Shown here: positions 5,516 through 35,826 of the stretch, piece by piece | Position numbering within the stretch: the first letter of the stretch is position 1 | How the letters are laid out: each line of letters opens with the position of its first letter | Source: Arthrinium phaeospermum | Taxonomy: Eukaryota > Ascomycota > Sordariomycetes > Amphisphaeriales > Apiosporaceae | Reading direction: 5' to 3' | Length of the DNA stretch: 64,000 nt | Assembly: GCA_006503535.1 (NCBI GenBank) | Contig: QYRS01000007.1 | Span: 2,480,001-2,544,000, forward strand | The notes under the pieces: model-generated | What the model was told of the DNA's origin: nothing | Databases searched by the model: none | What the model saw: the letters and a program-made list of their open reading frames with translations, nothing else | Translations under genes and position numbers: made by a program

Positions 5516-6294
5516 TCAGTGGAAGCACCCGCCGAAGCACTTCCCCGTCGCGGCCAGCCCGTACAGCATGATGGTGCCGACACCGGTGAGCCAGGACCCG
5601 ACCCAGGCGGCCACGGTGTTGACAGAGCCGATCTCGCAGAGGCCGCAGCACCCGGCCTGCTTGTCCGACTCGTACTGCTCCTTCTCGCGCCGGCCCTGCG
5701 GCGACAGCGAGATGCGGTCCTTGTAGAAGGCGACCTGGCCCTTGTACGGGTCGGCCTGGTGCTGCCGGCAGGGTTTGGGGTGGTGGTCGTACTCTACAGG
5801 GTCCGGTGTTAGCATAAGCGCTACTTGAAGTAATTGGTTGGTTGGGTAAGCTTGGTGGTGCTTGGTGGCTAGAGCATACCTGGTGGGGGAGCGGATTGGG
5901 GTCTTTGGTCTAACACCACCGAATCCAAACTCCAGCAGGGCGAGTTCTCATATCCGGTCGAGTACCAGCTATTTCGCCCGTAGGGATTCCTTACGGGAGG
6001 CCGAGCAGACGGGGGTTGCAGCCGGTTTGGGTCGAGCTGCTGCTGCCGCTTCTGCTCTGACCTTCGGAGCAGGCTCAGGCGGGTTTTCAGCCCAGACGGC
6101 AGCCGCGACGTGTTTCGCGGCGGACCTTCGTCGGACGAGCTGACAGAAGTGGCTGAGACATTCCTCATGTGCCGTGTGTAGGAGTGCTGCTGCCCATATT
6201 GCGGCCGGTCGGGGGTGCGTCCGCGACCGGGCGAGGATTTGGACCGGCGGGAATCGCTACGGCGGCCAGTGTGCAACGTTGAATCAATTGACAT
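5516..6294 (-). CDS. Small hypothetical protein with C-terminal membrane/Cys-rich segment, two exons
   Basis: Exon 1 is 5880–6294 and exon 2 is 5516–5793, joined across an 86-nt intron (GTATGC … GCTAAC … TGTAG) in phase, giving about 230 residues. The first two thirds are polar and Ser/Arg/Pro-rich (many SR and RR pairs), probably disordered. The end carries CCGLCE, a hydrophobic stretch of roughly 20 residues (WVGSWLTGVGTIMLYGLAA), and a terminal GKCFGGCFH. The cysteines beside a membrane-like segment suggest a tail-anchored or lipid-modified protein, which is inference. No known family was recognised. The textbook splice signals and the codon-like composition support a real gene. Confidence 0.6.
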
Positions 6295-15859: not shown

Positions 15860-17011
15860 TTAATACCTGTCCAGGACCGGCGCCCTCGACTTGGAAGGCT
15901 TGGCCACCGACGGCATCACGAACATGGACGCCCCCTCCTTCGGCCCGCCCAGCAAGCCCGCCTCCTCTTCGCCGTCCTGCACGGGGCCGCTGGGTCCCCA
16001 GACCCCACGGCGCCGCGCGCGCCGCGCCCGGCCGCGGCAGCACAGGCGGACGACGGGCAGGCCCGCGAACCAGAGCCCCATGTCGGGCGTGCCGGCGCGC
16101 ACCCACAGCCCGAGCACGACGAGCGTGCCGACGACGCAGAGGATGAAGAGCGCCATCGGCTCCCGGACGAGATAAAAGAACGGCAGGGGCAGGTAAAACG
16201 TAGGCACGAACAGCGGCCCGCAGATGGTGCGGCGGACGGGCCAGGTGGTCGAGGGGAAGTCGCCCGGGACCCCGCTGACGAGCAGATCGACCGTCTTGGC
16301 CCGGTTGGCCGCGTAGGCGCCCTCGAGGGACGTGACCGAGACGCCCTCGAACGAGGCGAGCAGGCCGATCATGCGGTCCGGGTCGCGGATGGCGCGGGGG
16401 CCCGGGAACCCGCCCCAGAGGTCCATCTCCTTCCAGACCTCGACGCGGCCCGGCGCGGGGCTGTAGACGCGCAGGTCGACTTCCTTGTCGCCCATGCCGT
16501 GCAGCACGTCGCCCACGAGCACCTTGTCCGTCCACCGGAACCAGGGCATATTAATGAAATCGTCCGTCGTGCCGTGCCGCACGCGCGCCGTGACCCGGTC
16601 GCCCAGGTACCAGCCCTTGCCCGCCGCGTCCGCCTCGTCTTTACCCGCCGCGAGGGCGGCGGCCTTGTTGTCGGCGCTCCGGAGGGCGGCGTCGGTGAGG
16701 TTGAGGCGGGCGTCGCCGAGGCGCAGGACGAGGGCGTCGGTCTTGGTGTCGGGGACGAGGCGCCAGTCGAGGATGAGGGCGCCGCAGTCGTCGCAGGCGG
16801 CGCCCCGCACGCGGTCGACGGTGCCCTTGTAAAAGTCGGCGTAGGGGTGCAGCGTCGTCAGGGCGCCGCCGGTGCGCAGGATCTGCTGGATGTAGGCATC
16901 GCGGTGGGCGGGGGGCACCTCGGGGAAGGGCAGGAAGAGCCAGGTGCCGACGAGGCAGAGCCAGGTCAAGGGCAGCAACCCCAGCACGCGCGTGATCGAG
17001 CAGCGAGGCAT
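15860..17011 (-). CDS. Hypothetical membrane protein, intronless (383 aa)
   Basis: One GC-rich frame starts at ATG 17011. A hydrophobic stretch at residues ~9–29 (VLGLLPLTWLCLVGTWLFL) is a signal anchor. One or two further membrane segments lie around 270–312 (VPTFYLPLPFFYLV and ALFILCVVGTLVVLGLWV), followed by an Arg-rich, probably cytosolic, tail. The region between is soluble and likely faces the lumen or outside; it has a CDDC motif near 73–76 and a possible NLT glycosylation site. No enzyme family was recognised. It is transcribed towards the HET gene and away from the isocyanide cluster, so no link is proposed. Confidence 0.7.
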   Translation of the reverse strand: MPRCSITRVLGLLPLTWLCLVGTWLFLPFPEVPPAHRDAYIQQILRTGGALTTLHPYADFYKGTVDRVRGAACDDCGALILDWRLVPDTKTDALVLRLGDARLNLTDAALRSADNKAAALAAGKDEADAAGKGWYLGDRVTARVRHGTTDDFINMPWFRWTDKVLVGDVLHGMGDKEVDLRVYSPAPGRVEVWKEMDLWGGFPGPRAIRDPDRMIGLLASFEGVSVTSLEGAYAANRAKTVDLLVSGVPGDFPSTTWPVRRTICGPLFVPTFYLPLPFFYLVREPMALFILCVVGTLVVLGLWVRAGTPDMGLWFAGLPVVRLCCRGRARRARRRGVWGPSGPVQDGEEEAGLLGGPKEGASMFVMPSVAKPSKSRAPVLDRY

Positions 17012-17689
17012 GCAGGAGGCAATGTAGCTGAGTATATTTCCTTCAACGAATGGACGCGAACAGACCCAGTCGCAAGAAAAAAAAAACAGATGGGCTGGAA
17101 CTATGGCAGGCCAAAAAGCGATTCCATGATTTCATGGGAGGGCAAAAAAGGGTCTGTTCGTAGAATTGAGTCTTAGGGGGCTCCCTTAGCGGGCTGCGTT
17201 AGTGGCATTACGCACGTCCCAGTGGGGGCGTTTCTGCTGAAAGAGGCTTAAGTGACCGCTGATCCCTCCAGCACCGATATCTCCGCGAAATCGTCCCCAG
17301 CGGGATGGCTGTTTTCCATTTGTTTCATGGCATTGAGAATGAAGAGGTGTCAACTACGAAGTACCAGCTCCTAATTTAGCAGCATTCTCACTTCTGTACG
17401 ATATTCAAGCGTTCAAATTGTGAATGAAGGCTCCATTTGGATGTTGGCTTAACACTGTTGAATCTCATTTTCTACCACTCCACCGTCACTGGTTGCAAGG
17501 GTTACGATCTCAGCACGGGCGACTTTTCTCGTTGGAATCACCCAAGTTCACGTGAGCGCCCATTGACTGGACACCGAGAAGCACCAGGATCTGTAGTGGG
17601 GGTTGTTTGCTTCATTCCGAAACGTCTTACAATCACGAGTCCCCCCAAGGCTTCTGCGCCAACAGTGAGGGTAGTGCTCTTCGCCCCTT
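17012..17689. other. Intergenic, divergent promoters
   Basis: This region separates the membrane-protein gene (minus) from the next gene (plus). No coding or RNA signal is seen. Confidence 0.5.
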
Positions 17690-18506
17690 ATGACTTCTCA
17701 CCGGCATGACGACCAAAGGCCTGCGAAAAGAGCACGGGCGGAGGGCCTTTCCGACGCTCCCCATGCGGGTGCATCAGGTGCGACGCCTTCATCGCCAAGG
17801 GCGCTCCAGCCCGCATTGTCGCGCAAGGGCTGGCGACAGCTGGAAGCTGATCTCGAAATGTTGCCCGACGCGGTGGCGAAGGAGATCCTGGTCCAATACG
17901 CCCCCATGCTCCCTGGTCTGGCCCTGGGCGTCATCGACAGATGCGACGAGCTTCGGCTGCAAGAGGCCCGGACGAAGCGCAACTACGACTCTTGTGCCAA
18001 TGAAACTGTAAGATAGAGTAGTTGGTGCTTTTGCCTGGTGCCCGGAAGCTGACACGGAAAACCCACAGGACTATCTGATGAACGCGAAATACAATAGGAG
18101 AATGAGGTCGGGCGAGGAGTGGGAAGCCGCCCTTGACGTCGAGACTGAAATCGGCAAGATGTTCGAGAAGATGGATTCGGAGATCAAGCCGTATTCCTCC
18201 TTCTTCTCCAAGCATAACGCGCTAAAGAACATGCTGCAGATGTTTGAGTCGGTCATGCAATGCGGCGACGATAATATCGGCGACATCGTGGGGCGCAGCC
18301 ATCGCTGTAGTAGGTGGGAGGACTTGTTTCTCCGGGTCCTCGGTCGCCTCACGCCCGATGAGCTGGCAAGATTGGGCGAACCCAAAGTGAAATTGGTCTG
18401 GAAACTGGACATTGTCGTCGGGTACGCCGACTCTTACGGCCTTTTCGGGAGGATTAGAGACGCCTATGATATTCTGAATCCCGAGGTGGTGGTGTTATCT
18501 GACTGA
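17690..18506 (+). CDS. Hypothetical helical nuclear-type protein, two exons (251 aa)
   Basis: Exons 17690–18007 and 18069–18506 join across a 61-nt intron (GTAAGA…CACAG) in phase. The N-terminus is basic (RPAKRAR), like a nuclear-localisation signal. It is followed by helical, leucine-rich segments (MLPDAVAKEILVQYAPMLPG), a long amphipathic helix region, and a helical C-terminus. The general plan (basic N-terminus, then a helical bundle) faintly recalls the Cut8/STS1 proteasome-tethering family, but the similarity is too weak to assign. It is transcribed towards the isocyanide synthase gene. Confidence 0.65.
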
Positions 18507-18885: not shown

Positions 18886-21119
18886 CTAGTCAAAATGAAT
18901 CCTCCACAGCTCCCGGTCGCACCCCGCCGTGAAATCGCTCCGCGTGTGCATAGCGAGGATATTATCGCTAACCAAGAAATCCCCCTTCTCCCAAGCGTGG
19001 TAGTACGCCACGCGGCGATCATGCAGCAGCTCCGCGAGCCCCGCGCAGATCCTCTCGCTTTCGGCGGTCTCCAGGCCGTCGATGGACACCGCCGTCGGCT
19101 GGAAGCGCGTCTTGCTCTGCGGCCACGGCTCGTGGAACCGGAGGCACGGCCGCCCCGTCGTCGGGTGGTCGACGAACAGCGGCAGGCCGCCCAGCCGCAG
19201 GTTGTCGAAGCCGCCCGTCGCGACGGTCCATTTTAGGGGTTGCAGCTCCGCCAGGGGCGGCAGGGCGGCGGGGGGCAGGTACTTGGTCACCAGGCTCGAG
19301 GAGGCGAAGAGGGTGAAGCCCGTGTCCTTGGGCGAGGAACTGATGGCTGTGAACATTTGGAACCTGGGGTGGTTTGTGTTAGTACTCGGGCTAGGTCTTT
19401 TCGCAGTTACAGTTACTTAAACACTTGTGCGACTTACTTCGGGGGTGTTGAGACGACCGTCTCGGTGCCGTCCTCGGGATTGGTCCGCGTCTCCGTCTTG
19501 AACAGGCCGTCGTAGTGCCACGGCATCCACTCCGCCGACAGGACGTTGTTGAGCCCCTGGGTACTCGACCCTTGGTCCTTGACCTCGAGGACCAGCCCAA
19601 ACTTCCACGGCGTAGGCTCGCCGAGCTCGTGCGCCTTGGCTACGAAGCGGTCCCGGTCCGTCGTCCCGGCGAAGCCTCGCAGCACCACGGGCGAGTTGTG
19701 TTCGGCAAGACCCCTCAGCTTCTGGGGATCGATGTCGCTTAACGATGGCACGCCACTAGGCCCATCGACAGGACGGACCAGTAAGCCAGCCGGGTAGACG
19801 GGGCTCACGGAAACACGAGACTGGCCGTCTTCGTTCTTATCCTCGCCCGCTAGCGAGTACAGATCGGACCGCTCCCGGAAGAAGCTGGGCCGTCCGTTCT
19901 CATGGACGAGCTCCCAAGAGTTGTCGTTCTCGAAGAACTCCCGGTGACCCGTCGTCGTCGTCCCATCGAGCCGGAACGCGATGGTGCTGTGCCAGGGGGT
20001 GGTAAACGAAGTGTCCGTCGGCAACAAATTGACCGAGATCTTGTTTTCAAACGTCGACGGATGGATCGAGAGCCGCAGCTGGTCTGAGAACCTTTCTTTC
20101 ACGGCCCGGGCAAACGCCTATCAAAAGTTAGTACTGACATCGGCAAGCAAAGCGACGGAAACGAAAAGCGGGCGGAAGCTGGAGACTCACATCACCCCTG
20201 TACAGCATCTTCTTGGCAATGTACTCGATCCCCTTCTTGTACTGCGACTTGGACCGCCGCGGCCCCGTCGGGTAGACATTCAGCAAGTCCGTCGATAGGA
20301 AGCGGATGTAGCCCCGGTACGTCATGCAGGTGTCGTCGTCCTCCTTGATCCGGCACGACACGTCCAGACCCTCGTCGCCAAATTGGGCCAGGAGGGCGTG
20401 GCGGAAGTTGCTGGCGTTGCAGACGTAGACGATCTCGTCCGGCTCGCCGTCGGGCAGATCGCTCTTGGCTTGCACCATGTCCTTGAGGCGCGCGAAGCCG
20501 ATGTGGCGGCTGAATCCCTTCTCGACACTCAGCTCCCGCAGCGCCGTGCCGTAGGCCCAGACGTCCCGGTCCGATACGCCGAGTAGGTCTGATTGTTTTT
20601 GTCAGTAGCAAGAACCATGATAGATATGGAACTGTGGCGAGAGCACTTACCATTGTACACAAGCCCGTCCGAGATGATGGTGAGCTTGGCCCCGGGTTCG
20701 TAGATGCTCTGGATGGCGGCGCACATGCCGTGGAGATGCGCGAGGGCGAACTCCTCGGCCTTATCCGGCAGCCGTCCCAGCACTTTGGTGGAAGTGTTGG
20801 GGGACTTGAACGGGAACGCCGGGAGGCACATGCGAACCTCCTGTCCCTTGGAGACGCTGGCGGCGATCTGCTCCAGGAACTTCGCATTGCTTTCCGAGGA
20901 GATGTCCGGCTGGCCTGGTCGCAGCAGCCTGTAGCGCTCTATTATCTCAAGGATCTTAGATGCCGTCTCATTGCTAGAGTTGACGGCGGGAGTGTTGTGC
21001 CCGCGCTCCTTCGGAACCAGCTTGGGGCCATCATGAGGGACATGATGCTCCAGCGTGGCCGGGAGGGGGGAAGAGTGATAGTAGACATGAGAGTTCTCTG
21101 CCTCGACGGATTCGAAACT
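18886..21119 (-). CDS. Isocyanide synthase (Dit1/PvcA family) fused to TauD-type Fe(II)/2-oxoglutarate dioxygenase
   Basis: Exons ending at 20651, 20191–20588, 19438–20117 and 18886–19363 join in phase across introns of 62, 73 and 74 nt. The N-terminal half is a Dit1/PvcA domain (EIIERYRLLRPGQPD; then DLLGVSDRDVWAYG, GFARLKDMV, MTYRGYIRFLSTDL). This family turns the amino group of an amino acid into an isocyanide. The C-terminal half is a TauD-like dioxygenase with an H-x-D iron site (His codon 19515–19517, Asp 19509–19511, in MPWHYDGLF) and a distal His (18946–18948). The fusion mirrors the separate bacterial PvcA–PvcB pair. The start is unresolved: the frame is open from 21119, just after an in-frame TAA, with no ATG before the domain. 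A short 5' exon is likely, for example ATG near 21289 spliced to about 21098. Confidence 0.88.
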
Positions 21120-21752
21120 TTAATTAAAATGATGCACCTTGAAGCAGGTCGTGCGCGGGTTGTCAGAAGCGGAAATGCAGGTCACCAAGTTCGGCTCTTT
21201 GGTCGAGCCCGCAGCTTTATGTCTAGACACCCCTACGGAGTATTAACACCGCTGATGCTTGCCACTCCCACCTCAGCCCTGTTTCTGTCCATCCCACTCC
21301 CTTCCCGATCGGACCATACGCATGTAGCCCTGGAAACACTCGATAATTCATGCTTACCAAGAAGGGTGTCATCGGTGATGGGGGCCCGGGTGCATGGCCG
21401 AAGTAAGGCCCCCTTGGCGAGAGACCGGGTCCTGATTGATGGTGGGGTACGTCGCATTAATCGGGCGAACCCCCTTTCGGAAACAGAGGGCAGGATGGCC
21501 AGTGCCGGGATTCAAATGCCGTATCTGCTTTGAGTGGAGACCTCCCACAGCTGAACCGGTTCATGCATGTGTCCAGACTGACATGCGTTCTGACATGCGT
21601 ATCCACAGCCTGCCTCGCGGCAAAGCCCGCATGCGTATCGCGACCTTATGCAATGCGTGTTAAATAGCATCGTCGTTTCCCACCAGGTCTCCTATGCCTA
21701 TTACAGAGCCACCCAAATTTTATCGGAAACCGCTTACTCGAGAAACAGCAAG
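21120..21752. promoter_or_regulatory. Shared divergent promoter between isocyanide synthase and FAD monooxygenase
   Basis: About 630 bases separate the two head-to-head genes, so both are probably driven from here. Part of it may hold the missing 5' exon of the synthase. It contains repeated ATGCGT motifs. I looked for the copper-response motif TGTGCTCA known from Aspergillus isocyanide clusters and did not see it. Confidence 0.6.
21579..21638 (+). repeat. Direct repeat TGACATGCGT with a third ATGCGTAT copy
   Basis: TGACATGCGT occurs at 21579–21588 and again at 21591–21600 (12-bp period). A related GCATGCGTAT lies at 21629–21638. They lie 115–175 bases before the monooxygenase ATG, a plausible regulator binding array. 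Confidence 0.5.
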
Positions 21753-23877
21753 ATGGGTTCGCAAGCTCAGGAAAATGTTGATATCGTCATCGTCGGAGGT
21801 AAGTTCACCCACCCCCCCGTCTCATCCAAGCATTATTCCAAGCATGCTAACGCGCAAGAAGGTGGTCCAACAGGCCTGCTTTCTGCCGTCCTGGCTCGGC
21901 AGCTGGGCCTCTCCGTTTCCGTCATAGGTATGTCCTCGCACTAGCAACGACTTTGTTTGCTCGCCCGCGGCATCATGATGGCTCTGACCGAACCCAGATG
22001 AGAAGCCGTCGTCTTTACCAGTGGGCAGAGCCGACGCCCTCAATGCCCGGACGCAGCAATATCTCGAAGTAGTCGGGACGCTCAAAGCGCTGAGACAGAA
22101 AGGCATCGAATGCAACAGTGAGTTTTCTTCCCGTCTGGGATGGGTGAAAGTTTATCCCCGGGTGTGGGCTACGTCAACTTACATACACCCTGGCAGCCAG
22201 CTCGACCTTCGCCGAGGGCGACTTCAAGTCTAGGCAGAGCAAGTGGTGGACCGGCCTCGAGCATTGCCACCACAAGAACTTCCTGATGATTGGCCAGCCC
22301 GAGGTCGAAAAAGCCCTGCTGGGCCAGCTCGACACGCCCGTTGTCCGGTTTGGGGAGCGGGTCGCCTCGATCGAGGAGGACGACGACGGCGTGACCGTGA
22401 CGACCGACGCTGGCCGGACCATCACGCGCGCCCAGTACGCGATTGGCGCCGACGGGGCCAGGTCGAGTGTGCGCCAAGCCCTTGGCATCGGCTTTGAGGG
22501 CACGAAACCGGAAATGATCTGGGCGGTCCTGGACTGCTTCCTCGACACCGACTTCCCAATCTGCTCCGAGATCATCACCTTCCAGCTCAATGGCCAGTCG
22601 CGCGTCTCGTGGATCCCGCGCGAGAGGGGCATGTCTCGCTTCTACGTCCTGCTCGACGGCGAAGTCACCCAGGAAAAGGCCGAGGCGTCCATTCGCGAAC
22701 ACCTGGCGCCCCATCGGGTGGACTTCGTGCGGACGGAGTGGTTCAGCACCTTTGAAGGTATGTGACGAACTTTTGTGTGTGTGTCGTCTGATCAATCATC
22801 AATCCCGGTGTGTGGGTGGGGACACCGGCAGTGGTGGGATATCGGTCGAGGTGGGATACCGGTGGTGGTGGTGGTGGGATACCGGTAGTCGTGGGATGCC
22901 GGTATTGGTGGTGGAGCTGTTGGGTGGTTGGTGCAACCATGCTAGGGCCCCCCTTTCCCTTTTTTCTCTGTTTTTCTCCACGTTTTAGACCACTAACCCC
23001 CGACCTGTCTACCAGTCCGGGAACGAATCGCATCGGCCTTTGTCACCAAAGAGGGAAAGGGCCGCATCGCCCTAGCCGGGGACGCCGCGCACGTCCATTC
23101 AGTCAACGGCGGACAGGGCCTCAACACGGGTATCGCGGACGCCTTCGGCCTTATCTGGCGTCTCAAGCTGGCCTGCGACATGGGCAAGGCCGCGGCTGAT
23201 CGGACGGGCGTGATCAGCACATACGACCTCGAACGACGTACGGTCGCCCAGGACGTTATCAACGTGGCCGCCCGGCTCGTACGTGACACGATGCACACTG
23301 CCAAGCAATATGTGTCCACCATTGAGAAGAACGCCGGGTATATTACTGGTGAGTTCTTTTTTTTTTTTTTTTTTTTTACCCACAACGCCACCCTTCCAGT
23401 GGCCTGCCCATTCGATTAACGTCTGACGAATCTAATCTGATCGTGTCACTCAATCTAGGCATGGGGGTTGCATACGGCGCAGTTGGATCTTGCCTTATTG
23501 CAGAGTCAGAGCGGGGCATCTGGAAAGCGGGCAGCAGATGCCCAGATCTGACCCTGGCCAGCCGGAAATTGGCCGACGAGCAGCAGCAGCGCATCTACTC
23601 TCTGGCCCAATATGGCCGGTTCCTCATCTTGGTAATCGGTGGTGCGTCGAACGATGATGTGCAGGCGTTGCAACAATTCCGGCACGTCTCGGATCTCTTG
23701 GCTCTTGTAAATCCGGCCGAGGGTCCCATTGACAGCGACGGCAGCGCTCGGACCTTTACCTCAGACCTGGTGGCTCCAGCGGACAAGTTCACCGTCCTCG
23801 TGCGACCCGACATGTACATCGGCTATGTCGGCGACGCTAGAGGTGCTCAGCAATACCTGCTGAATCTTTTCCCTTGA
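21753..23877 (+). CDS. FAD-dependent monooxygenase, phenol-hydroxylase type (514 aa)
   Basis: Six exons (21753–21798, 21862–21927, 21998–22117, 22197–22757, 23016–23348, 23459–23877) join in phase. Motifs are in order: the nucleotide-binding GGGPTG (15–20), the DG motif GADGARSS near 163, and the FAD ribityl-binding GDAAH at 286–290 followed by GGQGLNTGIADAF. The C-terminus has the thioredoxin-like end of this class (LVRPDMYIGYVGDA). Such enzymes use NAD(P)H and oxygen to hydroxylate or epoxidise an aromatic or related substrate. It is divergent from the isocyanide synthase and followed by a transporter, so tailoring of the isocyanide product is the natural inference. Intron 4 is unusually long (258 nt) with tandem repeats, and intron 5 has 21 T in a row. 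Confidence 0.92.
22814..22913 (+). repeat. Minisatellite-like repeats inside a monooxygenase intron
   Basis: Four to five imperfect copies of a GGTGGGATACCGGTxGT unit (17–23 bp spacing) lie within the fourth intron. The repeats are G-rich on the coding strand and probably unstable in length. Confidence 0.75.
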
Positions 23878-24160
23878 CGGCGCGGTCCTTAATCCGGGAT
23901 GGTGCTACCTAGGGGAATGATTGGGGGTGGAGGAGGGGCACGCATGTAGCAATAACAAACGATGAGACCCCATTATTACCAATGCAACCTCCCAGTACGG
24001 AGTACCCGCAGTGGATCGCTTCTATTATACCCCATACTTGTGTCACCCATGCAGCAACGGCTTTTTTGTTTATTTCTCGGCAGATGTCGCTTGGCACCAA
24101 CCCAGGACAACTTACCTCGCTGCAACCTGCTCAGCTCGTAGTGACAGTGACAAGTGAAGC
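23878..24160. other. Intergenic spacer, promoter of MFS gene
   Basis: This short spacer separates two genes transcribed in the same direction. No other feature is seen. Confidence 0.5.
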
Positions 24161-25592
24161 ATGCAGGAACAAGTGACTGACAGGTCATCGTCCTCGGTGG
24201 TGCCTGCCGCCGTCCCAGACACTCGAACCGAGGAGAAGACCATCATGCAGAGTGCATCCCGACCGGCTCCCAACTCGGGCGTTACCGCTTGGCTCCAAGT
24301 CCTGGGCGCCTTCTGTCTCTACTTCAACACCTGGGGTACGTGATGCCCTCCCTACCACACGCTGCCTTCCCTCCCCCGACGCCAACTAACCAAGCGACAA
24401 CGCGCGCAGGTCTGCTGTCCACCTTCGGCAGCTTCCAAGCCTACTACCAGACCGAGCTCCTGGCCTCCGAAACGGCCTTTGCCGTCTCCACCATCGGCTC
24501 GCTGCAGAGCTTCGTCCTCGTCTTCCTCGGCTTCCTCGCGGGGCCCCTCTACGATGCCGGCTACGCGCGGCACCTGCTCACGGCCGGCTCGGCCCTCATC
24601 GTCGTCGGCACCGTCTGCCAGAGCTTCTGCGCCACGCTCTGGCAGCTGCTGCTGGCCCAGGGCCTGTGCATCGGCATCGGCTGCGGCTGCCTCGCCGTCC
24701 TGAGCGTCGCCATCCCGTCGCTCTGGTTCACGACCCGGCTCCCGATCGCCAACGGCGTCGCGGGCATCGGGAGCGGTTTGGGCGGGTGAGTGCACGACTA
24801 AAATCCCTTCGCGCAATATTCGAGTCCCTAAATCGTCGCTAACCCTCTGCCAGCGTCATCTTCCCCATCATGGTCCGCAACCTCCTCCCCACCATCGGCT
24901 TCGGCTGGACCGTCCGCGCCATCGCGCTCGTCAACCTGGTCCTCCTGGGCCTGGCGAGCGCCGTGCTGCGGACCCCGCCCGCCACGGCCCGCCGGCGCCG
25001 CCTGGTCGACACGGCCTCGCTGACGGACTGGCCGTACGTCCTGTTCGTGCTGGGCTGCTTCCTCGTCTTCCTGGGGCTCTACACGCCCTTCTTCTACGTC
25101 CCCACCTTTGCCGCCACGTCGGGCTACACGCCCCGCGACGAGAGCTTCTACATCGTCATGGCCATGAACCTGGCCTCCATCCCCGGCCGCGTCGTGCCGC
25201 CGCTCCTGGCCCAGCGCTGGGGCGGCGGCGTGCTGCCCGTCATGGTGGGAACCGCCGTCGCCTTGGGCGCGTGCGCGCTTGGATTTATCGGATGCATGGG
25301 CATCGCCAGCGTCTATGTCGTGGCATGTTTCTACGGGTTCTTCACCGGCTCCTTTTTTGCGCTCCAGCCTACTTGCTTCGTCAGTCTGACCAAGGACATG
25401 AAGGTCATGGGGACGCGGTTTGGGATGGCGTTCACCGTGCTTTCGGTGGCGTTGCTCTTTGGATCGCCCATCAGTGGGGTGCTGCAGGGTAGATACGGGT
25501 ATTATGCGTCTTGGGTCTGGGCCGGGGTGGCCCTTTTCACAGGAAGTCTTGCTATTTACGCTGCCCGCGCAATGAGGACGGCGGCTCAATAA
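24161..25592 (+). CDS. MFS transporter, monocarboxylate-transporter-like (429 aa)
   Basis: Exons 24161–24335, 24410–24785 and 24854–25592 join in phase (introns of 74 and 68 nt). A hydrophilic N-terminal tail is followed by about 12 hydrophobic segments. The first is WLQVLGAFCLYFNTWG with the FGSFQAYYQTELL block typical of fungal monocarboxylate-porter-like MFS proteins. The GxGxG-rich region (LCIGIGCGCLAVLS) and GSGLGG are also typical. It sits at the plasma or an internal membrane. Lying directly behind the FAD monooxygenase on the same strand, it is a good candidate exporter of the isocyanide product or importer of a precursor. Substrate cannot be read from sequence. Confidence 0.9.
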
Positions 25593-25775: not shown

Positions 25776-28700
25776 TCATTCAATTGGATATGGCCAAGGT
25801 CGGATAGTGAATGCACCCATAATATGCTTGACTTCTTGGACGGAGATGCTGGGCTGCTGCCTCGGGCGCCGCGACAGAGAACCCGCGTACAAAGACCTTG
25901 AAAAGGGATGGACAGCGCCACGGAGCCCATGCAGTTTCTCTCGGCGCAGCAGATAGTCGGCAACATCGGAATGATAATACCGCAGCGCGAAGCCCAAGGG
26001 ATCCGTGCGCGAGGTGTCCACGTCCACTTCAATTTCTGCGTCGATGGCCTTCTTTTTCCAGCCGTGGATCGTCATATCCCGCACGTTGGAGCGGCAGCCG
26101 AAGGCACAAAGAGCTTGTACGCAGCCGAGATGGCCGTTGGCCGCGGCTATGTGTAGCGCCATGTCTGTATCGATATCGTCTCGGGATGTATAGCATAGAA
26201 GTTCCTCCACAATAGGCGTGCTTCCGACCAAGCATGCCAGCTGTACGGCTGGATATTGCGGTTTGGCTCCAGCTTTCAAAAGTATCTTGACCACTTCAAA
26301 CCAGTCCCCTCGACATGCGGCGTGCAACGGGGTCCTCCACCGCTTGTCTCTTGCATCGTAGTCTGCACCATGCCGCAGGAGAAGATCGACAATCTTGGCC
26401 GATCCGGCAGCAGCCGCGTGCCAGAGAGGCGTCCGGTTCTCCACATCACCTATTTCAATATCGAGTTGCTTGTCCAGCCGTAGTATAGCCTTGACAGCCG
26501 CCAGGTTCCCCATGGCCGCAGCACGGTGCAAGGGAGTCTCGTGTAGCCAGTTGAATCTTGCGTTGGTCCAAGGTTTCGATTCTGCCCACCCAAAGGGACC
26601 AGTTGACGAGAAGTGCAGACAGGAATGCGATGGCTGAGCAAGTGCCCGTAAGATGTACTTGACTTCGCTTGACGTCACATATGCCGCTGCCAGATGTGAT
26701 GGGGAATCCAGAGATTCCGCCCATGTTCTGTCGCTCCAGTAGTCCGCCGACCATATCTTACGAGACGCCTGCGGTTCCTCGTCTGATACGAGATAGCGTA
26801 TCGTGTCCAGATTGCCAAAGAACAGAGCAACGTGAAGTGGCGTCAGGCCGTAGGTCGTCCTGGTGTTAATCATTGCCTCGTTCTTGCAAAGCAGACGTAC
26901 GCCGTCTAGACCGCTGTAAGCTGCGGCCCAATGCAGGGGCCTGAACCCGTCGAATATAGCGGCATACTCTCCGGATTTGTCGGATTCATATGAACTGGAG
27001 GTGACCGCCTCCATGGATATCTTGTTGAAACTGCTCGCCATTATCCCGGCGATCACAGCAGTATTGTTCCCAATGCATGCTTTGACGAGGAGCCGGCTGA
27101 AATACCGGTGTAAGGTGTCTTCCTCATGATCGCCCTGAAGCCCACCGGTAATAGTTATCTTCTGCCTATCATGAGTATCGCCCATTTTCATCAGCTCATA
27201 GTGGGGAGGGACGCGGATAGTGGCTGGAGGATGCGATCGTACTTGTCTGATTCCAGGAAGTCGTCCCAAGGCACAGTCCCAAGTACTCTCGCTGGTACAT
27301 GATTGGTATAGAGCCTCGTACCATTCTTTGTAGGGAGTGAGGCCGGATTCTGGGCCGATGTCGGGCATCTCGGGCGGCCTGATGTGTGGCGGGTGGAAGA
27401 TCTTCGCACGCGATGGATATAGTTGATGCATCCCGCGATAGAATTGTCCCGGAGCGGGGGAGATCCGTATCCGGGCTGGGTTGATGCGAGCTCTAATGCC
27501 TTTGTGTATTGACGCATCAGTAAATTTGTTGGTCTTGTGTCGCGTGGAGTCATCCAAAAACATCTTGGCAGCGTCCTCCAGCGTAAGTTCAAGATCGCTG
27601 TCCTTTAGCGTACACCAATAGGACCATTCAGGACATAGAGTACTCCATTCGTCCGAGGAAGGGCCAAAGTAAAGATCAAATGTTGTGCCGACCGAATTTC
27701 CAAGTCGTAAAGCTGCGAGAGGTTCCCGTCCAGATGTATCAAATTCGATCTTTGAGTCCAACGCCATTCTGGGATGCGCATCGAGTATCTTGATGGGTAT
27801 GCCGTCATCGATATCAACACTGAGTCTCGGGAGGGACAACCCCGCGTGCTGTTTTACGTATATGGAGGTGCGTTGTTCCCCGTGCTGTCTGTCACAGGTG
27901 TAGATTCTGTGAGGGTTACACCGAGCGAAATGGCTGCCACCCAGCGATACTAGCAGAATTGCCAGTCGAAACATATCGTAGTCGTCCTCATCCTCGATGG
28001 ATGCATCTGCGGCGTCCAAGATGGCAAAGAACCCGGTCTGGTTAGGTGGAATTCCCGGACGTATCGACTTTATTGAATTTGCTCGTATAGAGGGGAGTAG
28101 GTCAAGTTGTGTATGTAACCCCAAATTGGTAATCGAACACGGGACTATCGCCGAGTTCTCACAAGGAATTATACTCCTAGAGTCCGCGAAAAACGCAGGA
28201 CTAGGTGCAAACAGTCCACAATGACTATAACGAAGCACATTGTTGTCTGGACATTTCCATAAGAATATGGTATGATCTGTTGATCCTGCTCGCATTGTCA
28301 GCGCCCGAAAACAAAAAGTGTGCTGCACACCAACCTTTGAGTATCTCTTCTTGGAGGCGGATGAACGCAAGTTCCCCCTCTCCATATAAGAGAGGCATAT
28401 TGACATCGAAAATCCCCATCAGACAGTACGCAACATCTTCGATTCTGGTTGTTTTACGCCTCGCAGCCCATGACATCCGCTGCGCGATGCTGAAGTCGCT
28501 CAGTACCAATGTACCGTCGCCAACTAAAGCCTCTCGAGGTATGCCTGTGACATCCGTAACAAGGCCTGTCATGTCCGAAATAGGATTCATGTGTTGCCGC
28601 CACTGTAAGTCTTTCTTAGAGCCAATGAGCTGCCATTTTCTGTTATAGAAATTGACGTTAGGGGACGCAACGAGCTCCTGCAATGTCCAGCCTCGGGTAA

Positions 28701-29157
28701 ACCAACGGCTTTGTGTTGTTTTCTTTACAAGTGTCGTAAGCCTCTCAGACTCACCAGATTCATGTACTTGCTCGAGTTGAATATCGACATCCACATCGAT
28801 CAGATATGCATAGCATACAGCAGAGTCGCGGTAGTACCGGTACATGGAGTTAATGGCTTCTGATAGCTCGGCGCTGGAGCTCTTGTCGATGCAGCAGGTG
28901 TCGATCCAGATGTAGCTATAACCTTGCGATTTGGCCAATGCCGCAGCATCTCGCACCTTGGCAAAGCCGGGCTTGGCATATATCGAACGACACATCCACT
29001 CCGAGTAATAGGCTTGATAATTCATCAGCTGCTTGATGTCGTCGAAGCTGAGTTCCTCTTCGTCCTTTCCCCAGGTATGGGATAATATGGCGTAAGGTGG
29101 AAGGTCATTGTCGTATTTTGTAACGAGGGCAAGTGTTGAAGTGTTCAGAAGTCGCAT
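25776..29157 (-). CDS. HET-domain protein with C-terminal ankyrin repeats (HET-E-like N-terminus, 1110 aa)
   Basis: Exon 1 is 28335–29157 and exon 2 is 25776–28285, with a 49-nt intron (GTTGGT…GAGCAG) in phase. The start at 29157 gives MRLLNT, the hallmark opening of HET-E/HET-D/HET-R-type proteins. The HET domain (1–~145) has YAILSHTWG (22–30) and YIWIDTCCIDK. The conserved follow-on blocks ATRIEDVAYCLMGIFDVNMPLLYGEG-like and CGLFAPSPAFFADS span the splice site. Where HET-E has NACHT and WD40 repeats, this protein has a linker and then about eight ankyrin units (for example NRTPLWHAAAAGSAKIVDLL and RWRTPLHAACRGDWFEVVKIL). It likely senses a non-self cue through the repeats and signals through HET. 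Confidence 0.9.
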
Positions 29158-30994
29158 TGTCAAAACAGGACCACCGAGTTCTGATCTATGCCAATAATTT
29201 GACGCTGTTTGGGGACAAACTTGAGTAAATTTGATATCTAGGTGCAATTGTCTGTTCCGTTCAGCCTCCTTTCCACAGTAAGCGAGCTGATGTAAGACGA
29301 ATGTGACTGTGTTACGTTCATGCACTGCCTATTGGTCAAACTTGCGGCGGAATAAGAAATATCCGCGCGCGCTTACATAATGCATATTGGCAGTTTTGTA
29401 GCCGGCAGAACACATACCGAAAATATGCGACTCAACAGAAAGGAAAAAGAGAAAGTATCATCAGATTGACATGGAGTTGCATGAACACGAGCCAGACCCC
29501 AAGCATAGAACAAGTTATGGGTTAGGATGCACAAACTGCAAGAGGTCTGGTAAATTAGCCAGCAATGGTTCCAAGGACAAGTCACTGCCAGCTGGATTCT
29601 AGTCGTCCCCGACTAAACAACAAAGTGCGAAGGTGCCAAAGCCCGAGGTCATCTCGGGGTATCCCAGAGATGATAGGCAAGCAGAACACCAAGCTTCCGT
29701 CACATAGTATAGACAGAGGCCTACGGCGCAAAAAGGAAGGGGTTGACAACTTGGTCAGTCACCTACTAGCACGTAAACAGGTCCCTTTCCGATGTTCAAA
29801 TCCCTTCCACATCAGTAAGGAGGTTGCACAGGGTGCAACCCCTGGCCCATATATAAAAACAATGAAAAGGCGGCTGGTAATCGCTGCTTATCGGATCACC
29901 GGGGCCAGATGGTGGCTGGAATTTGCTTTTTCTAATGCAGGTACCCACTTGCAGCCCCTTGGTGCGAGTATCATTTTAGGGGATGACCCGAGAGTCAAAC
30001 CAATTCGTCGGGTGCCTCCGCAGGGACAGACTGGCTGGTCAAAGTGTAAACAGCTCGGAGGAATTGACCTCGAGTGCGTTGCGCCGGGTTATAGGGATGT
30101 CTCTAGCGAATGTAACGCGCGCGAGCCCCATTGACCGGAACCGAGTGGCCGGAAATCATAGGGGGCTCGAGCATTGCTCCCTCGTACCAGCAAGCAAAAT
30201 CCAAATACGACGCGTATAGGATTACGAGGGACCAAACTGGCAGGTCTTAGCTCGCTGCTTGCTTTGCCTAGAATGATATTCAGTATAATCTCCGAACGCC
30301 CCGTTTTAGATAAACCTTAAGTTTAAAGTCTCCGCTATAAAAATAGACTAGGTAGGTCTGCACAGGTACGTACCTATTGCTTCAAATACTTATTTAGATA
30401 GATGGAATGTCTAACAGCAACGACCCTAACCCGGCGACAAAACTGAGGCCATTGAACCGTCGACTAATGGTCACCTTAATTCACCCTTTTAGACGATGTT
30501 GTGGTTACTAGTCAGCGCTGCAGGGTGCAGGTTCGTGTGCCAATGTCGGGGCAGTTCCGAACTGGGGCCAGGCACCGGCTTAGTCTCGTATCTGAGACAA
30601 AACAAGTTGCTATGATATGCTGCTCTGGCCTGAAAAGGAAAATCTCTTCGCTTTTGTGAGGGCATCAATGTCTTATAATCGTCATGCACACGTAGTCGAT
30701 ACCCCATAACTTGTAACTAATGAGTGTCGCTGGTTATTAGTTGACGACGGAGGGTCGTCTCGTTCGTGACTGAACAGTGCCCCTGTCTCATATCTCATAC
30801 AAGGTGCCGCGCGGAGCGGAGTGCAGGCTTGCAGATACCGAGGTCAGTGGCAGATACTATGTAAACGTAGCGGTGTCAACCTGCCACGCCCCGCGGCCAT
30901 GCCCCGGCCCTGAACTCTGAACTCTCCTTCTACCTCGATCTGACTACACAGAAAGCTCTGCAACTTCGCATAGCCTTCTCATCCATCTTTGAAC
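29158..30994. other. Intergenic region (1.8 kb), partly AT-rich
   Basis: No domain-bearing frame is seen. A 189-codon plus-strand frame at 29565–30134 looks random. The stretch from about 30240 to 30500 is AT-rich. The right end is the P450 promoter. Confidence 0.5.
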
Positions 30995-32788
30995 ATGGGT
31001 TTCCAGGCCCTCCTTGTGATGCCCCTGGGGTTCCTTGCGCTATGTTTGTTCACCTTCCTGAAGACCAACCTGCTCTATCAGATCGCTATTCGGAATAAGG
31101 AGGTCGAAAAGGAGCCCCCGATACTGCCGCACAGCATACCCTGGCTCGGCCATGTCTTTGGCTTCCTGACGCCGGTCCCAGGCCGTTTCTTCTCCAAGGT
31201 GCTTTCGTGGTTCCCGAAAAGCCATGGCGGCGCGTCCATGAAGCTGGCCGGCCGAGAGGTTCGGCTCATCTTTTCGACCACGGCGGTCCAGGCACTATTG
31301 AGGAGCAAGCCGGAGGTGGCCAATAGCGACACCATGATCAAGGACATGGCGTGCAAGGGCTTGAAGATTGGCCCCGCCGATTACGCCAAGTACTTTGAGT
31401 GCCGCCACCTGGAGCACGAGCTGTCCAACAAGTACCTACTACGCCCCAAAGCCGCCGACGTCCTGCTGCGCCAATTCGACCGGTTTATGAAGCAAGGCCT
31501 CTCGCAAGAAAGCCGCCGCCTCTCCGCCCCGGCGACCCAGATGGGCGAGGCCGTCAACCTCTACGAGTGGCTCCAGGGCCTCATGTTCAAGGCCTCGGCC
31601 ACCGCCTTCTTCGGCGAGCGCCTGTTCGCCGAGTACCCCAACATCCTGCGCGACTTTTGGGACTTTGAGCCCCTGTTCCTGGGCCTCCTGTTCGGCGTCC
31701 CGCGCTGGGTCAACTCGAAGCCCCACGTGGCGCAGGAGAACATCATCCAGGGCCTGACGGCGTGGGTCGAGGCCAACGACGACGACATGCTGCGTGGCGA
31801 CAAAGGGGTCGCGCCCGACCCGGACGTGCCCGATCGGGATTGGGAGCCGCGCTGGGGCAGCCGCTTCGTCCGCGCCCGGCAGCAGTTCTTCCAGCGGCTC
31901 GGCCTGAGTCCCCGCGGCCGGGCCAGTCTGGAGCTGGGCCTCATGTTCGCGCTCAACTCCAACGCGGTGCCCGCCACGGGCTGGATGCTGATGCACATCC
32001 TGGACCCGCGCAAGCCCGACGTGCTGCCGCGCATCCTGCAGGAGATCCAAGAGGCCGTCGACGTGGCGGCTGCGAACAAAAACAACAACGGGGGCGAGGG
32101 CGAGGACGAGCTGGACTTCGACCTGCCCACGCTCATCAGCCAGCCGCTGCTCCAGAGCATGTTCCAGGAGGTGCTCCGCTTCTACGTCGACGTGCTGGTG
32201 ACGCGCGGCGTGCACCAGGACATGCGCCTGCCCACCGAGGACAGCCAGACCACGCTGCTGATCAAGAAGGGCACCATCGCCATGGCGCCCTCCTACGTGA
32301 ACCACTACGACCCGACCGCCTACCGGGGCGCGCCCGTCGACGAGTTCGACGCGGAGCGGTTCCTTGTCCCCGCCGGCGAGGTCACCAGCGCCGCCGCCAC
32401 CACCAACAACCAAAACCTATATAGCAGCGACAACCACAGCGAGCCCTCCTCCGACGACGAGAAGTCGTCTTCAACAACCAACACCAACAGCAAAGTCAGC
32501 CAGAAGCCCTACGCCTTCAGCCCCGGTGCCGCGGGCGCCAAGATGATCCCGTTTGGGGGCGGTCGGACCATGTGCCCCGGTCGCGTCTTCGCCAAGCGCG
32601 AGGTCTTCTCCGCGCTGGCGCTGGTGCTGCTAAACTTCGACATCGCGCCGCTCGCGGGGCCGAGGTCGTACAAGGTGCCAGGCCACGTCTCCTCGTACAG
32701 CGGTTCGGGCATTATTGGGCACGGGGGCGACATCAAGGTCCACATCAAGAGGCGAACGACGACGACGGCGGCGAAGTCGCAGAGTTAG
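30995..32788 (+). CDS. Cytochrome P450, microsomal, intronless (597 aa)
   Basis: The ATG at 30995 opens with a membrane anchor (LLVMPLGFLALCLFTFL) and a proline-containing hinge (EPPILPHSIPWLGH). The helix-K E-x-x-R lies at 392–395 (EVLR). The heme loop FGGGRTMCPGRVFAKRE has the cysteine ligand at residue 527. The overall type resembles fungal proteins described as cholesterol 7-alpha-monooxygenase-like. An unusual low-complexity insert rich in Ser, Thr and Asn (about residues 465–505) lies between the PERF-like region and the heme loop and makes the protein longer than the usual ~500 aa. The terpene synthase 1.6 kb downstream on the same strand suggests it oxidises a terpene, which is inference. 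Confidence 0.93.
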   Translation: MGFQALLVMPLGFLALCLFTFLKTNLLYQIAIRNKEVEKEPPILPHSIPWLGHVFGFLTPVPGRFFSKVLSWFPKSHGGASMKLAGREVRLIFSTTAVQALLRSKPEVANSDTMIKDMACKGLKIGPADYAKYFECRHLEHELSNKYLLRPKAADVLLRQFDRFMKQGLSQESRRLSAPATQMGEAVNLYEWLQGLMFKASATAFFGERLFAEYPNILRDFWDFEPLFLGLLFGVPRWVNSKPHVAQENIIQGLTAWVEANDDDMLRGDKGVAPDPDVPDRDWEPRWGSRFVRARQQFFQRLGLSPRGRASLELGLMFALNSNAVPATGWMLMHILDPRKPDVLPRILQEIQEAVDVAAANKNNNGGEGEDELDFDLPTLISQPLLQSMFQEVLRFYVDVLVTRGVHQDMRLPTEDSQTTLLIKKGTIAMAPSYVNHYDPTAYRGAPVDEFDAERFLVPAGEVTSAAATTNNQNLYSSDNHSEPSSDDEKSSSTTNTNSKVSQKPYAFSPGAAGAKMIPFGGGRTMCPGRVFAKREVFSALALVLLNFDIAPLAGPRSYKVPGHVSSYSGSGIIGHGGDIKVHIKRRTTTTAAKSQS

Positions 32789-34345
32789 TTGATGATGATG
32801 CTGGCTATTTACTCAGGTTTGGCCGGGACAGGAGAAAGGGAAATAGTATGCGAGGGATATAGCAGCATCAGATTTTCGATATGTATGATTTGACACGTGG
32901 TACGCTGGAGTTACACAGGGAGGTCTTATTTAGCTTCGTCTCACTCGGGGCTTTCGTTTTCGAAGGATGTGCCCAAACGGGAATTGTTGCCTTTCAGGGA
33001 AAGAAGATGCATGTCAGATACTTTGTCACCAAGCCTCCTACGCTGAGGCGTGGGGGAGGCTTGAGTCTAATTCGAGTGCCACATTTCCTTATTCGATGAT
33101 TACTCCGATTTTGCGAGCCCACAATTTGCCAGTCCATCTGATCTTGGCTGAGGCTTACCCACGGACCCCACCTCGTACGGAGGCTCTTAGTTAGGAGGCT
33201 CTTACTACACTAGCCCAAATGCTAATACGAGTAGCGCCGCCAACATCTACTCGTGAGGCAACGTTACTGGACAATGGCTACGAGCCTATTGACTAGTATT
33301 AGATAAGGTATAAGAGTCGATCGACTCCACGTGTGGCGGGGACGAAAACCAGATCCGGGGTAACCGTGTACTTGGTAGTCTATCGCGGTTACACATCCAT
33401 ATAGCGAGCAGAGCCCGACCGGGTGATCCCGCGGCATCCGATCGTGACATGGCCGGAGCACGAAGAGTTATACGAGCTCCGAGAAGGTAGAAAGCCGATC
33501 CGAGCAAACACCGACCACGCGGTACGAGTAACTAAGACATAGTGGATTACGTAGTACGGCGTACGGCGTATTGCGATCAAGTGTATAGTCCGCGATCAAA
33601 GGTTACACAGTGCCACGGCGGTGAGAGACACAACCGATGTCTCAGAACGGGATGAGCCGGCTGTCACCGTCGAAAAGAACAGGCGCAGGCTACGACGTTT
33701 ACGAAGGATTGGCGACCTATATCACAGACATATATGAGGCTGAACTACTACGCCACCCACCAGGCTGACGTGTATCTTTGTCGACGGGGAGCAGTCGTCC
33801 CATGACCCACACCGCATCTTGATCACGGGATCCAGAATCTCCTTCGGGATCTGCATCTTGACAGCCCTACCCGTCTGCCTGTTGATCCAGATCGTGTCAC
33901 GGAGCTGCAAAACCCGCGCAACCTGGTACGGGGTACCCTACGACCACGAGGTAGGACTTGTGAGGCTTATACCGTAGGGCTGAAGATAAGGATCCCGACG
34001 CCGGTCCGAACGGTTGGTAATAAGACAACGTCCTAACAGGTAGATGACATGGTATCCATTTATTTCGGTGTAAAGAACAGATGGGTTGATGTTGCGATCA
34101 TCTACGTCATGCCGAGGACACCTCACGAGATGGAAAGAGCGAAACGGCGCCATCCGGTCCCTAAAGCTCAGCTCGTGGAGTATGTATATCCGTGTATATA
34201 AATACTAATCGGGGGCACCCCTTGCTGGACGGATCACGATGCCTCTCAGCCTCACTGCCCCGCCCTCTATTACGGCCGAACCTAACTCTCCAGCATTTAT
34301 CACAATTTTCACCACGTTGGGCATACCGAGAAACACCCCTTCAAG
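32789..34345. other. Intergenic region (1.6 kb) between P450 and terpene synthase
   Basis: No gene was assigned. A minus-strand 62-codon frame at 33722–33910 (DTIWINRQTGRAVK) reads like a coding fragment but matches nothing I recognise. The last 150 bases are the terpene synthase promoter. Confidence 0.45.
34195..34204 (+). promoter_or_regulatory. TATA-like element of the terpene synthase
   Basis: TATATAAATA lies about 140 bases before the start codon in an otherwise GC-balanced stretch. Confidence 0.5.
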
Positions 34346-35365
34346 ATGCCTTTTACGGAAAACCGAATCACGATCCCTGACTTCATGGCCTCGTGGCCGA
34401 CGGAAAGGGGCTGGCCCTGGGAGGCAAGACACCACGTCGACTCGGACAGCATCAAGGCCGAGTCAGAGCAGTGGCTACGCAACTACGAGGGCATCGATGG
34501 CACGTTCGTAGACAAGATCATCCAGGGCCGCTTCCCCGACATCGCCTGCCTCATCTACGGACACCAGACGCGAGACCATTGTCTACTGATGGCCATTATC
34601 ATGCTCCACTTCTTCGTCATCGACGAGGTGACGGACCACGACGATGAAGCAGCCGTGCGTCAGAGGGCAGAGGCGATGACCCACGCGCTCCAACGCCCCG
34701 GGTCCCTCGCCTCCTTATCACCGGACGACACGTGGGTCGGCACCCGCATGGCCGCCGACATCACGACCCGGTACCGAGACGCGGGCACGTTCGCGTCCTG
34801 GAAGTTCTACGTGGACACCTTCATCGACTACATGGACGGCGTCGCCGACGAGGCCGCCGCCCGCACCAAACCGATCCTGTCGCGGGCCGACTACCTCGCC
34901 CTGCGGACCAAGACCATCGGCGTGCTGCCGGGCATGGCCATGGTCCTGATCGGCTGCGAGCTGCGGGACGGGTTTCTGGACCGGCCCGTGGTCAAGTCGC
35001 TGATGGGCCTGACGGTGCTGATCCTCATCCACCAGAACGACATGTACAGCTTCGACAAGGAGCGGGCCAAGGGCGAGGACGGGCACAACGGCGTGCGCGT
35101 GCTCATGGAGGAGCGCGGGATCGGGGTGCAGGCGGCCATGGACAGCCTCGGCGGCGAGACGGGCGGGCTCGTGCGCGAGTTTGTGCGGCTCTGCGAGAAC
35201 CTGCCCGTGTTGGATCACGAGACGGACAGGGCGCACTTGCGCGTGCTGCGGGACGGGTGCATTTCCTGGATCATTGGGATGGAGGTCTGGTCCACCCAGG
35301 TCACGCACCGGTACGGCATGCAGAACCTGGGCGCGGACCGGTCATATAGACCAGCCCAATGCTGA
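34346..35365 (+). CDS. Class I terpene synthase (sesquiterpene-synthase-like), intronless (339 aa)
   Basis: Both metal-binding motifs are present and correctly spaced. The aspartate-rich motif is DEVTD at 93–97 (FFVIDEVTDHDD), and the NSE triad is NDMYSFDKE at 231–239. The RY pair that contacts diphosphate is at 322–323. The length of 339 residues matches fungal sesquiterpene synthases. The reaction is Mg2+-dependent ionisation of farnesyl (or geranyl) diphosphate and cyclisation in the cytosol. The product cannot be predicted. A P450 on the same strand upstream and a hydrolase-like locus downstream form a possible small terpene cluster. The start at 34346 has a good AAGATGC context. Confidence 0.93.
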   Translation: MPFTENRITIPDFMASWPTERGWPWEARHHVDSDSIKAESEQWLRNYEGIDGTFVDKIIQGRFPDIACLIYGHQTRDHCLLMAIIMLHFFVIDEVTDHDDEAAVRQRAEAMTHALQRPGSLASLSPDDTWVGTRMAADITTRYRDAGTFASWKFYVDTFIDYMDGVADEAAARTKPILSRADYLALRTKTIGVLPGMAMVLIGCELRDGFLDRPVVKSLMGLTVLILIHQNDMYSFDKERAKGEDGHNGVRVLMEERGIGVQAAMDSLGGETGGLVREFVRLCENLPVLDHETDRAHLRVLRDGCISWIIGMEVWSTQVTHRYGMQNLGADRSYRPAQC

Positions 35366-35826
35366 GTACAGACTCGCATTTGCGTCGTGTTTTTTTTTTT
35401 TTCTTCTTCCTTTCTTTTGGCGCGTAATCAGGGCGTACAGGAAGCACTACACTCATTGACGTGAACGGACATTGGAAGTGGCGCAGAGATTAGGGTGACA
35501 TGATTTGTCTATTTACGATAATCAATAATGATGTCAACGAATTCAAAATGGCTATGATATCTTATTCACTGTGCCGGTGTGGATGGCGTCGGAGCAAATG
35601 ATGCCTTGGGATGCACAATCCGCAGCGGCCCATGCGGTTGGTACAGCAAGGTCTTGGCTGCATAGCAGATTTCATAGACTGAATTCCACCAAATGTCACA
35701 CCGGCTGGGGGCGGTCATGGTCATCGATACTCACGGCTTATTCGTCACTTTTGGACGGCCACGTAGCGGAATGTGGACTAGCTCATAAGCAGTAAGAGCG
35801 AAGACTGGGAATGTCGGATTTGTGGT
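35366..35826. other. Convergent 3' intergenic spacer
   Basis: This spacer holds a pyrimidine tract (15 T from about 35390) soon after the terpene synthase stop. No gene is seen. Confidence 0.5.

Follow-up and report, generated by a model that had tools for sequence, protein, structure and literature searches.

The locus examined here raises the question of whether three neighbouring genes of Arthrinium phaeospermum form an isocyanide biosynthetic unit and, if so, what such a unit would make. Isocyanides bind transition metals, and several of them are antimicrobial. The genes lie at positions 18886-25592 of the window, which is the whole stretch of 64,000 nucleotides that we analysed (contig QYRS01000007.1, positions 2,480,001 to 2,544,000), in an assembly of 48.4 Mb and 19 contigs. 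They encode an isocyanide synthase (ICS) fused to a TauD-type dioxygenase, called ICS-TauD below, a FAD-dependent monooxygenase (FMO) of the phenol-hydroxylase type and a transporter of the MFS family. We find that this is a real, conserved isocyanide trio of known architecture; as far as our searches of open-access titles and abstract openings went, no product has been assigned to such a trio. The fusion protein is predicted from its sequence to form an isocyanide, and it is fairly likely that the three genes act as one Apiospora cluster, in which tyrosine would be converted to 4-hydroxystyryl isocyanide, the FMO would oxygenate the ring and the MFS protein would export the product. The parts of this proposal that draw their support from sequence are the domains, the catalytic and diagnostic residues, the neighbourhood and the shared history of the trio; we infer the tyrosine substrate, the order of the steps, the substrate and outcome of the FMO reaction and the direction of transport.

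Structure and domains of the three genes

18886..21119, minus strand: ICS-TauD gene, 4 exons, 674 codons, single terminal stop
18886..19363, minus strand: ICS-TauD exon 4, dioxygenase half with the distal His, the 2-oxoglutarate-binding Arg and the diagnostic position in RFHEP; stop at the low end
19438..20117, minus strand: ICS-TauD exon 3, end of the ICS domain, linker and start of the TauD domain with HYDGLFK
20191..20588, minus strand: ICS-TauD exon 2, ICS domain
20651..21119, minus strand: ICS-TauD exon 1, 5' part of the gene; ATG at 21088 out of frame, no in-frame ATG before the ICS domain
21120..21752: intergenic region between the divergent ICS-TauD and FMO genes, presumed to serve as a shared promoter
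21753..23877, plus strand: FMO gene, 514 amino acids, 6 exons (21753-21798, 21862-21927, 21998-22117, 22197-22757, 23016-23348 and 23459-23877, the last with the stop)
24161..25592, plus strand: MFS transporter gene, 429 amino acids, 3 exons (24161-24335, 24410-24785 and 24854-25592, the last with the stop)

All three introns of the ICS-TauD gene are of the GT-AG type, and the FMO and MFS genes each open with an ATG, end at their only stop and have GT-AG introns throughout. In profile searches the fusion protein matched PF05141 (E 3.4e-98, residues 86-354) and, on the same chain, PF02668 (E 1.5e-27, residues 415-671); beyond these it gave only one WW_1 match below the cut-off. PF01494 was found in a 453-amino-acid piece of the FMO (E 1.6e-42) and PF07690 in a 401-amino-acid piece of the transporter (E 3.6e-23). 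An earlier note, made from the letters of this DNA, had placed a Dit1/PvcA domain and a TauD domain on one chain, beside a divergent FAD monooxygenase and an MFS transporter at 18886-25592, and both its coordinates and its domain assignments for all three genes were correct. It had also pointed to the H-x-D and the distal His of the dioxygenase, which we see as HYD within HYDGLFK (residue 490) and in MHTRSDF (residue 654); the stretch with the Arg that binds 2-oxoglutarate or substrate reads WRIHFD. With PF05141 and PF02668 on one chain and the H-x-D...H facial triad and the Arg present, the protein belongs to the fungal ICS-TauD fusions. It is 95% identical to a protein of Apiospora marii (Apiosporaceae, subclass Xylariomycetidae), and on this basis we treat the fungus as an Apiospora.

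The FMO is a class A phenol-hydroxylase-type enzyme, as judged from its GxGxxG, DG and GD motifs, its catalytic Asp, Arg and Tyr and the fold predicted for an Apiospora orthologue. It retains the VibO/phenol hydroxylase residues R97, D99, R287 and Y289, and among its listed relatives the PRE....RFY pattern occurs in 120/120 and GxAD in 104/120. Its introns carry a GT-rich near-repeat (TGGGATACCGGT...) at about 22840-22915 in intron 4 and a run of 21 T at 23357-23377 in intron 5.

Predicted chemistry

Structures were predicted for the Apiospora orthologues P0002 and P0122 in place of the spliced proteins of the window. By sequence, the ICS half of P0002, from A. rasikravindrae, matches PvcA (3e59, 1.9e-32) and PIsnA (9dh4/9dhm), and its TauD half matches PvcB (3eat, 6.8e-19) and PIsnB (7tcl). 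The same PvcA/PIsnA and PvcB/PIsnB relatives rank top by fold when the predicted model of P0002 (mean pLDDT 84) is compared. For PIsnB the metal- and substrate-binding residues are known, and the available passages of the study give a rule by which K or R at position 107 together with N or H at 188 marks enzymes making a vinyl isonitrile, and L together with C marks the isocyanoacrylate enzymes (PMC9467999). The window protein has counterparts of PIsnB H101, D103, H250, R265 and W74. Across 44 aligned relatives each of these five is invariant or conserved in at least 90%; among the active-site residues, the counterparts of H477 and D479 are invariant and those of H633 and R648 are conserved in at least 90%. 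At the diagnostic positions the window protein has K (in HYDGLFK, PIsnB 107) and H (in RFHEP, PIsnB 188). The relatives compared here are 120 ICS-TauD rows listed of 515 found, each row being a 90% cluster; 116 of them have K at the first position, 1 has R and 3 have neither, and H stands at the second in 113/113 in which the motif was found (it was not found in 7).

Since both diagnostic positions are of the K and H type, a vinyl isonitrile is predicted rather than a coumarin, and 4-hydroxystyryl isocyanide is expected if the substrate is tyrosine, a choice suggested by the family and by the phenol-hydroxylase-type partner. The ICS half would join the amino group of L-tyrosine to a carbon from ribulose-5-phosphate, giving tyrosine isonitrile, and the TauD half, with Fe(II) and 2-oxoglutarate, would decarboxylate and desaturate this to 4-hydroxystyryl isocyanide. 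The FMO, using FAD and NAD(P)H, may then oxygenate the phenol ring, by default through ortho-hydroxylation to a catechol, and the MFS protein would export the final product. If a catechol is formed, the trio would parallel bacterial PvcA-PvcB-PvcC in function, with a ring hydroxylase that is not homologous to PvcC. The dioxygenase half could instead be PvcB-like, so that the set makes an isocyano-dihydroxycoumarin resembling paerucumarin. An ICS, an Fe/2-oxoglutarate enzyme and a flavin ring hydroxylase do resemble the pvc operon in outline (available part of PMC3639982), in which PvcC would be the hydroxylase. Both diagnostic positions, in the window protein as in almost every relative listed, are of the vinyl-isonitrile type, which makes this outcome very unlikely and rules out a paerucumarin-like product as the first choice.

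Conservation and linkage of the trio

Both PF05141 and PF02668 are present in 120/120 of the relatives, and members of the trio occur, among the matches listed, in many ascomycetes, including Trichoderma, Fusarium, Colletotrichum, Metarhizium and Hypoxylon. Where the displayed names include locus numbers, those of the ICS and FMO genes are consecutive in 14 pairs among the matches listed: Neoarthrinium moseri, Conoideocrella luteorostrata, Neonectria ditissima, Lecanicillium saksenae, Aphanocladium album, seven Fusarium, Emydomyces testavorans and Cosmosporella, whose numbers step in tens. Three full ICS-FMO-MFS runs are seen (Neoarthrinium, Cosmosporella and Fusarium NRRL 66182), and in Hirsutella minnesotensis the ICS and FMO numbers are 7 apart. 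We also compared contigs for all 120 listed ICS and 120 listed FMO rows and the first 62 of the 120 listed MFS rows, taking contigs of equal size as the same contig. An FMO row shares the contig of 43/120 ICS rows, and since sharing does not amount to adjacency on long contigs we note that 14 of those 43 lie on contigs below 200 kb; 17/120 share a contig with one of the 62 MFS rows and 8 with both partners. Two gene models probably represent merged neighbours. One, P0237 of Fusarium oxysporum, fuses the FMO with an MFS domain, which agrees with the adjacency of these two genes; the other, P0057 of Tolypocladium capitatum, joins ICS-TauD to PF12706/PF23023.

These pairs, runs and shared contigs, together with the gene trees described below, bear out the idea that the three genes belong together. 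That they are adjacent by chance, with the FMO serving another pathway, is highly improbable. A paralogue of the FMO in the same genome (contig C3, 4111787-4113575), 49-63% identical by stretch, adjoins SDR-like (short-chain dehydrogenase/reductase) and Zn2Cys6-like open reading frames (ORFs), judged by eye from their translations, and no ICS gene was seen in the 9.9 kb read there, so the FMO family has other settings too. Against chance stand the consecutive numbers and the unusual tree placement common to all three genes, by which this explanation is largely refuted.

Gene trees and shared history

Trees were built by a quick method, with SH-aLRT support, from chosen subsets of 45 (ICS), 42 (FMO) and 29 (MFS) rows that include the window. 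All three genes share an unexpected placement in two lineages. Hypoxylon sp. FL1284, a name used as given by its source record, groups with Apiospora in all three trees (support 100, 99 and 100) and, for ICS and FMO, stands apart from the seven other Hypoxylaceae rows and Durotheca; the MFS tree has no Hypoxylaceae row besides it. Pseudocercospora, a dothideomycete, is nested in a set of Xylariomycetidae in all three trees (96, 98 and 99), being represented by P. musae for ICS, P. eumusae for FMO and P. fuligena and P. musae for MFS. Approximately unbiased (AU) tests, with groups named after the trees were seen, rejected forcing together the eight Hypoxylaceae rows plus Durotheca (the latter Xylariaceae in NCBI), with p 2.1e-5 for ICS and 1.4e-7 for FMO. 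Forcing the dothideomycetes together was rejected for ICS (p 3.8e-8, with Corynespora, a long branch, in the set) and was borderline for FMO (p 0.047, with only two rows). Fulvia, another dothideomycete, speaks against a simple story: its ICS stands beside that of Pseudocercospora and its MFS relative is placed elsewhere. The odd placements could stem from horizontal transfer, from an ancient duplication followed by losses or from wrong labelling of a strain.

The 5' end of the ICS-TauD gene and points of doubt

The ATG corresponding to the relatives' start codon has its first base at 21088 on the minus strand and is out of frame with the remainder of exon 1; no Met occurs in frame before residue 97, which lies within the ICS domain. 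The catalytic residues are located downstream of this problem. The ICS-TauD proteins of relatives open with a short variable leader, and a scan for upstream 5' exons yielded 17 combinations, of which none was convincing. Possible causes are a true frameshift, an error in base calling and a 5' exon that was missed. It is rather improbable that this copy is a decaying gene and the strain's cluster silent. Decay would account for the misplaced start codon, and the A. marii model also begins further in than other Apiospora models; it fits poorly with 674 codons free of internal stops, intact splice sites, intact FMO and MFS genes and high identity to relatives, and a base-calling error or a missed exon would give the same appearance.

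Several points count against the tyrosine-based trio that we propose. Expression of the window's copy of ICS-TauD is uncertain, as the start codon that matches the relatives is out of frame. Single mutations at the diagnostic positions fail to switch the product, according to the available passages of PMC9467999. The stretch around the distal His fits a strict pattern in 95/120 of the relatives, the other 25 not having been viewed singly. P0002 scored 128.7 bits against the NCBIfam tyrosine isonitrile synthase model, for which the cut-off is 600, so tryptophan or another amino acid may be the substrate. Phenol-hydroxylase-like FMOs carry out either hydroxylation or Baeyer-Villiger chemistry on one fold, as passages of the VibO paper state, so the FMO step may take either course. 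The correlation of ICS with FMO distances over 44 taxa (r 0.895; largest of 2000 permutations 0.187) is uncorrected for the species tree. Finally, 77/120 listed ICS rows share no contig with a listed FMO row, which is explained in part by undercounting, the rows being 90% clusters. The view of the earlier note that the locus looks like an isocyanide biosynthetic unit is supported, and its suggestion of a new product may be right.

Comparison with known isocyanide systems

The fusion had been presented as something special, and this part of the note did not hold. Monodomain ICS, ICS-dioxygenase and ICS-NRPS (nonribosomal peptide synthetase) architectures are described in the available passages of Lim et al. 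(2018, PMC5974471), where XanB is an ICS-dioxygenase. Those of the preprint of Nickles et al. (2023, PMC10153163) give a share of 36.2% for ICS-TauD among the ICS proteins of fungi, with MFS genes as the commonest neighbours. We therefore reject the view that the fusion is unusual in itself, an architecture that all 120 relatives share. The statement that the FMO partner lies outside the xan, crm and dit clusters stood up: none appears in the cluster descriptions seen in these two sources, and the words FAD, flavin and monooxygenase are absent from the main text of the preprint as available.

The xan cluster of Aspergillus fumigatus is close in its backbone, since XanB has the same one-chain fusion and is expected to take tyrosine through the same two initial reactions (available passages of PMC5974471), a likeness drawn from the published description. 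It differs in carrying the Dit2-like cytochrome P450 XanG, the putative hydratase XanA, the methyltransferase XanE and the regulator XanC, whereas the window trio has the FMO and the MFS gene. No P450 adjoins the ICS-TauD gene, the only one among the 20 window ORFs scanned lying at 30974-32785, beyond the ankyrin and HET genes, and PF01965, the hydratase family, has no match in the window, the nearest on the contig being about 134 kb before the window start. Membership in xan is ruled out by these two absences; methyltransferases were not searched for by family. Membership in crm is ruled out, as the domains of the fusion (PF05141, PF02668 and the WW_1 match mentioned above) include none of the NRPS-like kind. 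Membership in dit is ruled out too, since Dit1 of Saccharomyces cerevisiae shares PF05141 with the window protein but consists of that one domain and acts together with a P450, Dit2, whereas the window protein is fused to TauD (PMC5974471, available passages). The ICS-TauD backbone is common to the window fusion, to xan and to gene cluster families (GCFs) 6, 7 and 9 of Nickles et al., and GCF 6 is spread over several classes of Ascomycota, as are the ICS-TauD relatives found here (PMC10153163, available passages).

With the bacterial PvcA/PvcB and PIsnA/PIsnB of the paerucumarin and rhabduscin systems the window protein shares homologous catalytic domains and conserved active-site residues; in these bacteria they are separate proteins, whereas here they form one chain. 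The bacterial ring hydroxylase PvcC belongs to a family other than that of the FMO. A search for related loci in bacteria turned up three.

A possible route to cyclopentenyl isocyanides

VibO acts on another para-substituted phenol, and a cyclopentene arises further along that route. Trichoderma forms its cyclopentene isocyanides from tyrosine. A VibO-like Baeyer-Villiger or ring-opening reaction of the FMO on the styryl isocyanide, followed by reclosure to a cyclopentenyl isocyanide of the homothallin and trichoviridin class, is an outcome that we regard as unlikely. Like VibO, the FMO would place an oxygen in the phenol ring, adjacent to the hydroxylated carbon. Opening of the lactone would give a carboxylic acid together with an aldehyde or enol carbon, and onto this carbon the vinyl carbon that carries the isocyanide would close; the product would be a five-membered ring whose side chain is a propionic acid. 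Its 8 skeletal carbons and one isocyano carbon would agree with a Trichoderma isocyanide acid described in older literature. Among the matches listed, the ICS-TauD and FMO families are both represented in Trichoderma and the FMO in Paramyrothecium, and in Cladobotryum, the neighbour of Trichoderma in the ICS and FMO trees, both genes are apparently on one contig, judging from equal contig size. Isocyano-, amino- and formamido-cyclopentenones come from Trichoderma and Myrothecium, and related ones from a Botrytis and a Streptomyces (available part of PMC12734637). The FMO keeps D99, I279 and Y289 of the VibO pocket and differs from VibO at two pocket positions (F265 to Ile, A366 to Gly); the modelled FMO orthologue has 523 residues, the VibO and phenol hydroxylase chains 602-652. 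The broader proposal, that the ICS-TauD/FMO/MFS trio is a widespread pathway to cyclopentenyl isocyanides of the homothallin, trichoviridin and dermadin class, seems less likely still.

Surroundings and other loci in the genome

12118-12897: Zn2Cys6 regulator, left of the trio, as are HET genes
15863-17131 and 18012-18503: ORFs without a Pfam match, left of the trio
25779-29328: ankyrin and HET gene, right of the trio
30974-32785: P450 (PF00067), right of the trio
34286-35362: class I terpene cyclase (PF19086), right of the trio
36361-36981: alpha/beta hydrolase, right of the trio

The P450, the terpene cyclase and the hydrolase at 30974-36981 are likely a separate small terpene cluster. Further on, 46001-48000 shows a strong AT skew (0.252) over an ankyrin-like ORF, followed by a subtilase fragment at 48395-49087. 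The copper-regulator motif TGTGCTCA was not found in the intergenic regions of the trio, which is weak evidence either way; its one match in the window is at 25663, downstream of the MFS gene, with 2.0 expected by chance.

The genome holds a second ICS gene (contig C12, 318104-319084; L008, about 4550-5790), which is apparently monodomain, no TauD domain being seen by eye among the L008 ORFs of at least 120 amino acids. A PF05141 match below the cut-off at 2398085-2398312 of contig C4 (L011), near a short ORF that looks MFS-like by eye, is possibly a relic. PF02668 gives 30 exon-level matches in the genome, so TauD-like genes are frequent beyond the ICS fusion and the domain alone does not point to an isocyanide gene in this fungus.

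Significance of the trio

The trio is widespread in ascomycetes, has a predicted first intermediate and is small enough to be rebuilt in a laboratory mould. The significance of the family would be higher if the ring-contraction route were true: an FMO that contracts the ring would explain how the cyclopentene isocyanides of Trichoderma arise from tyrosine.

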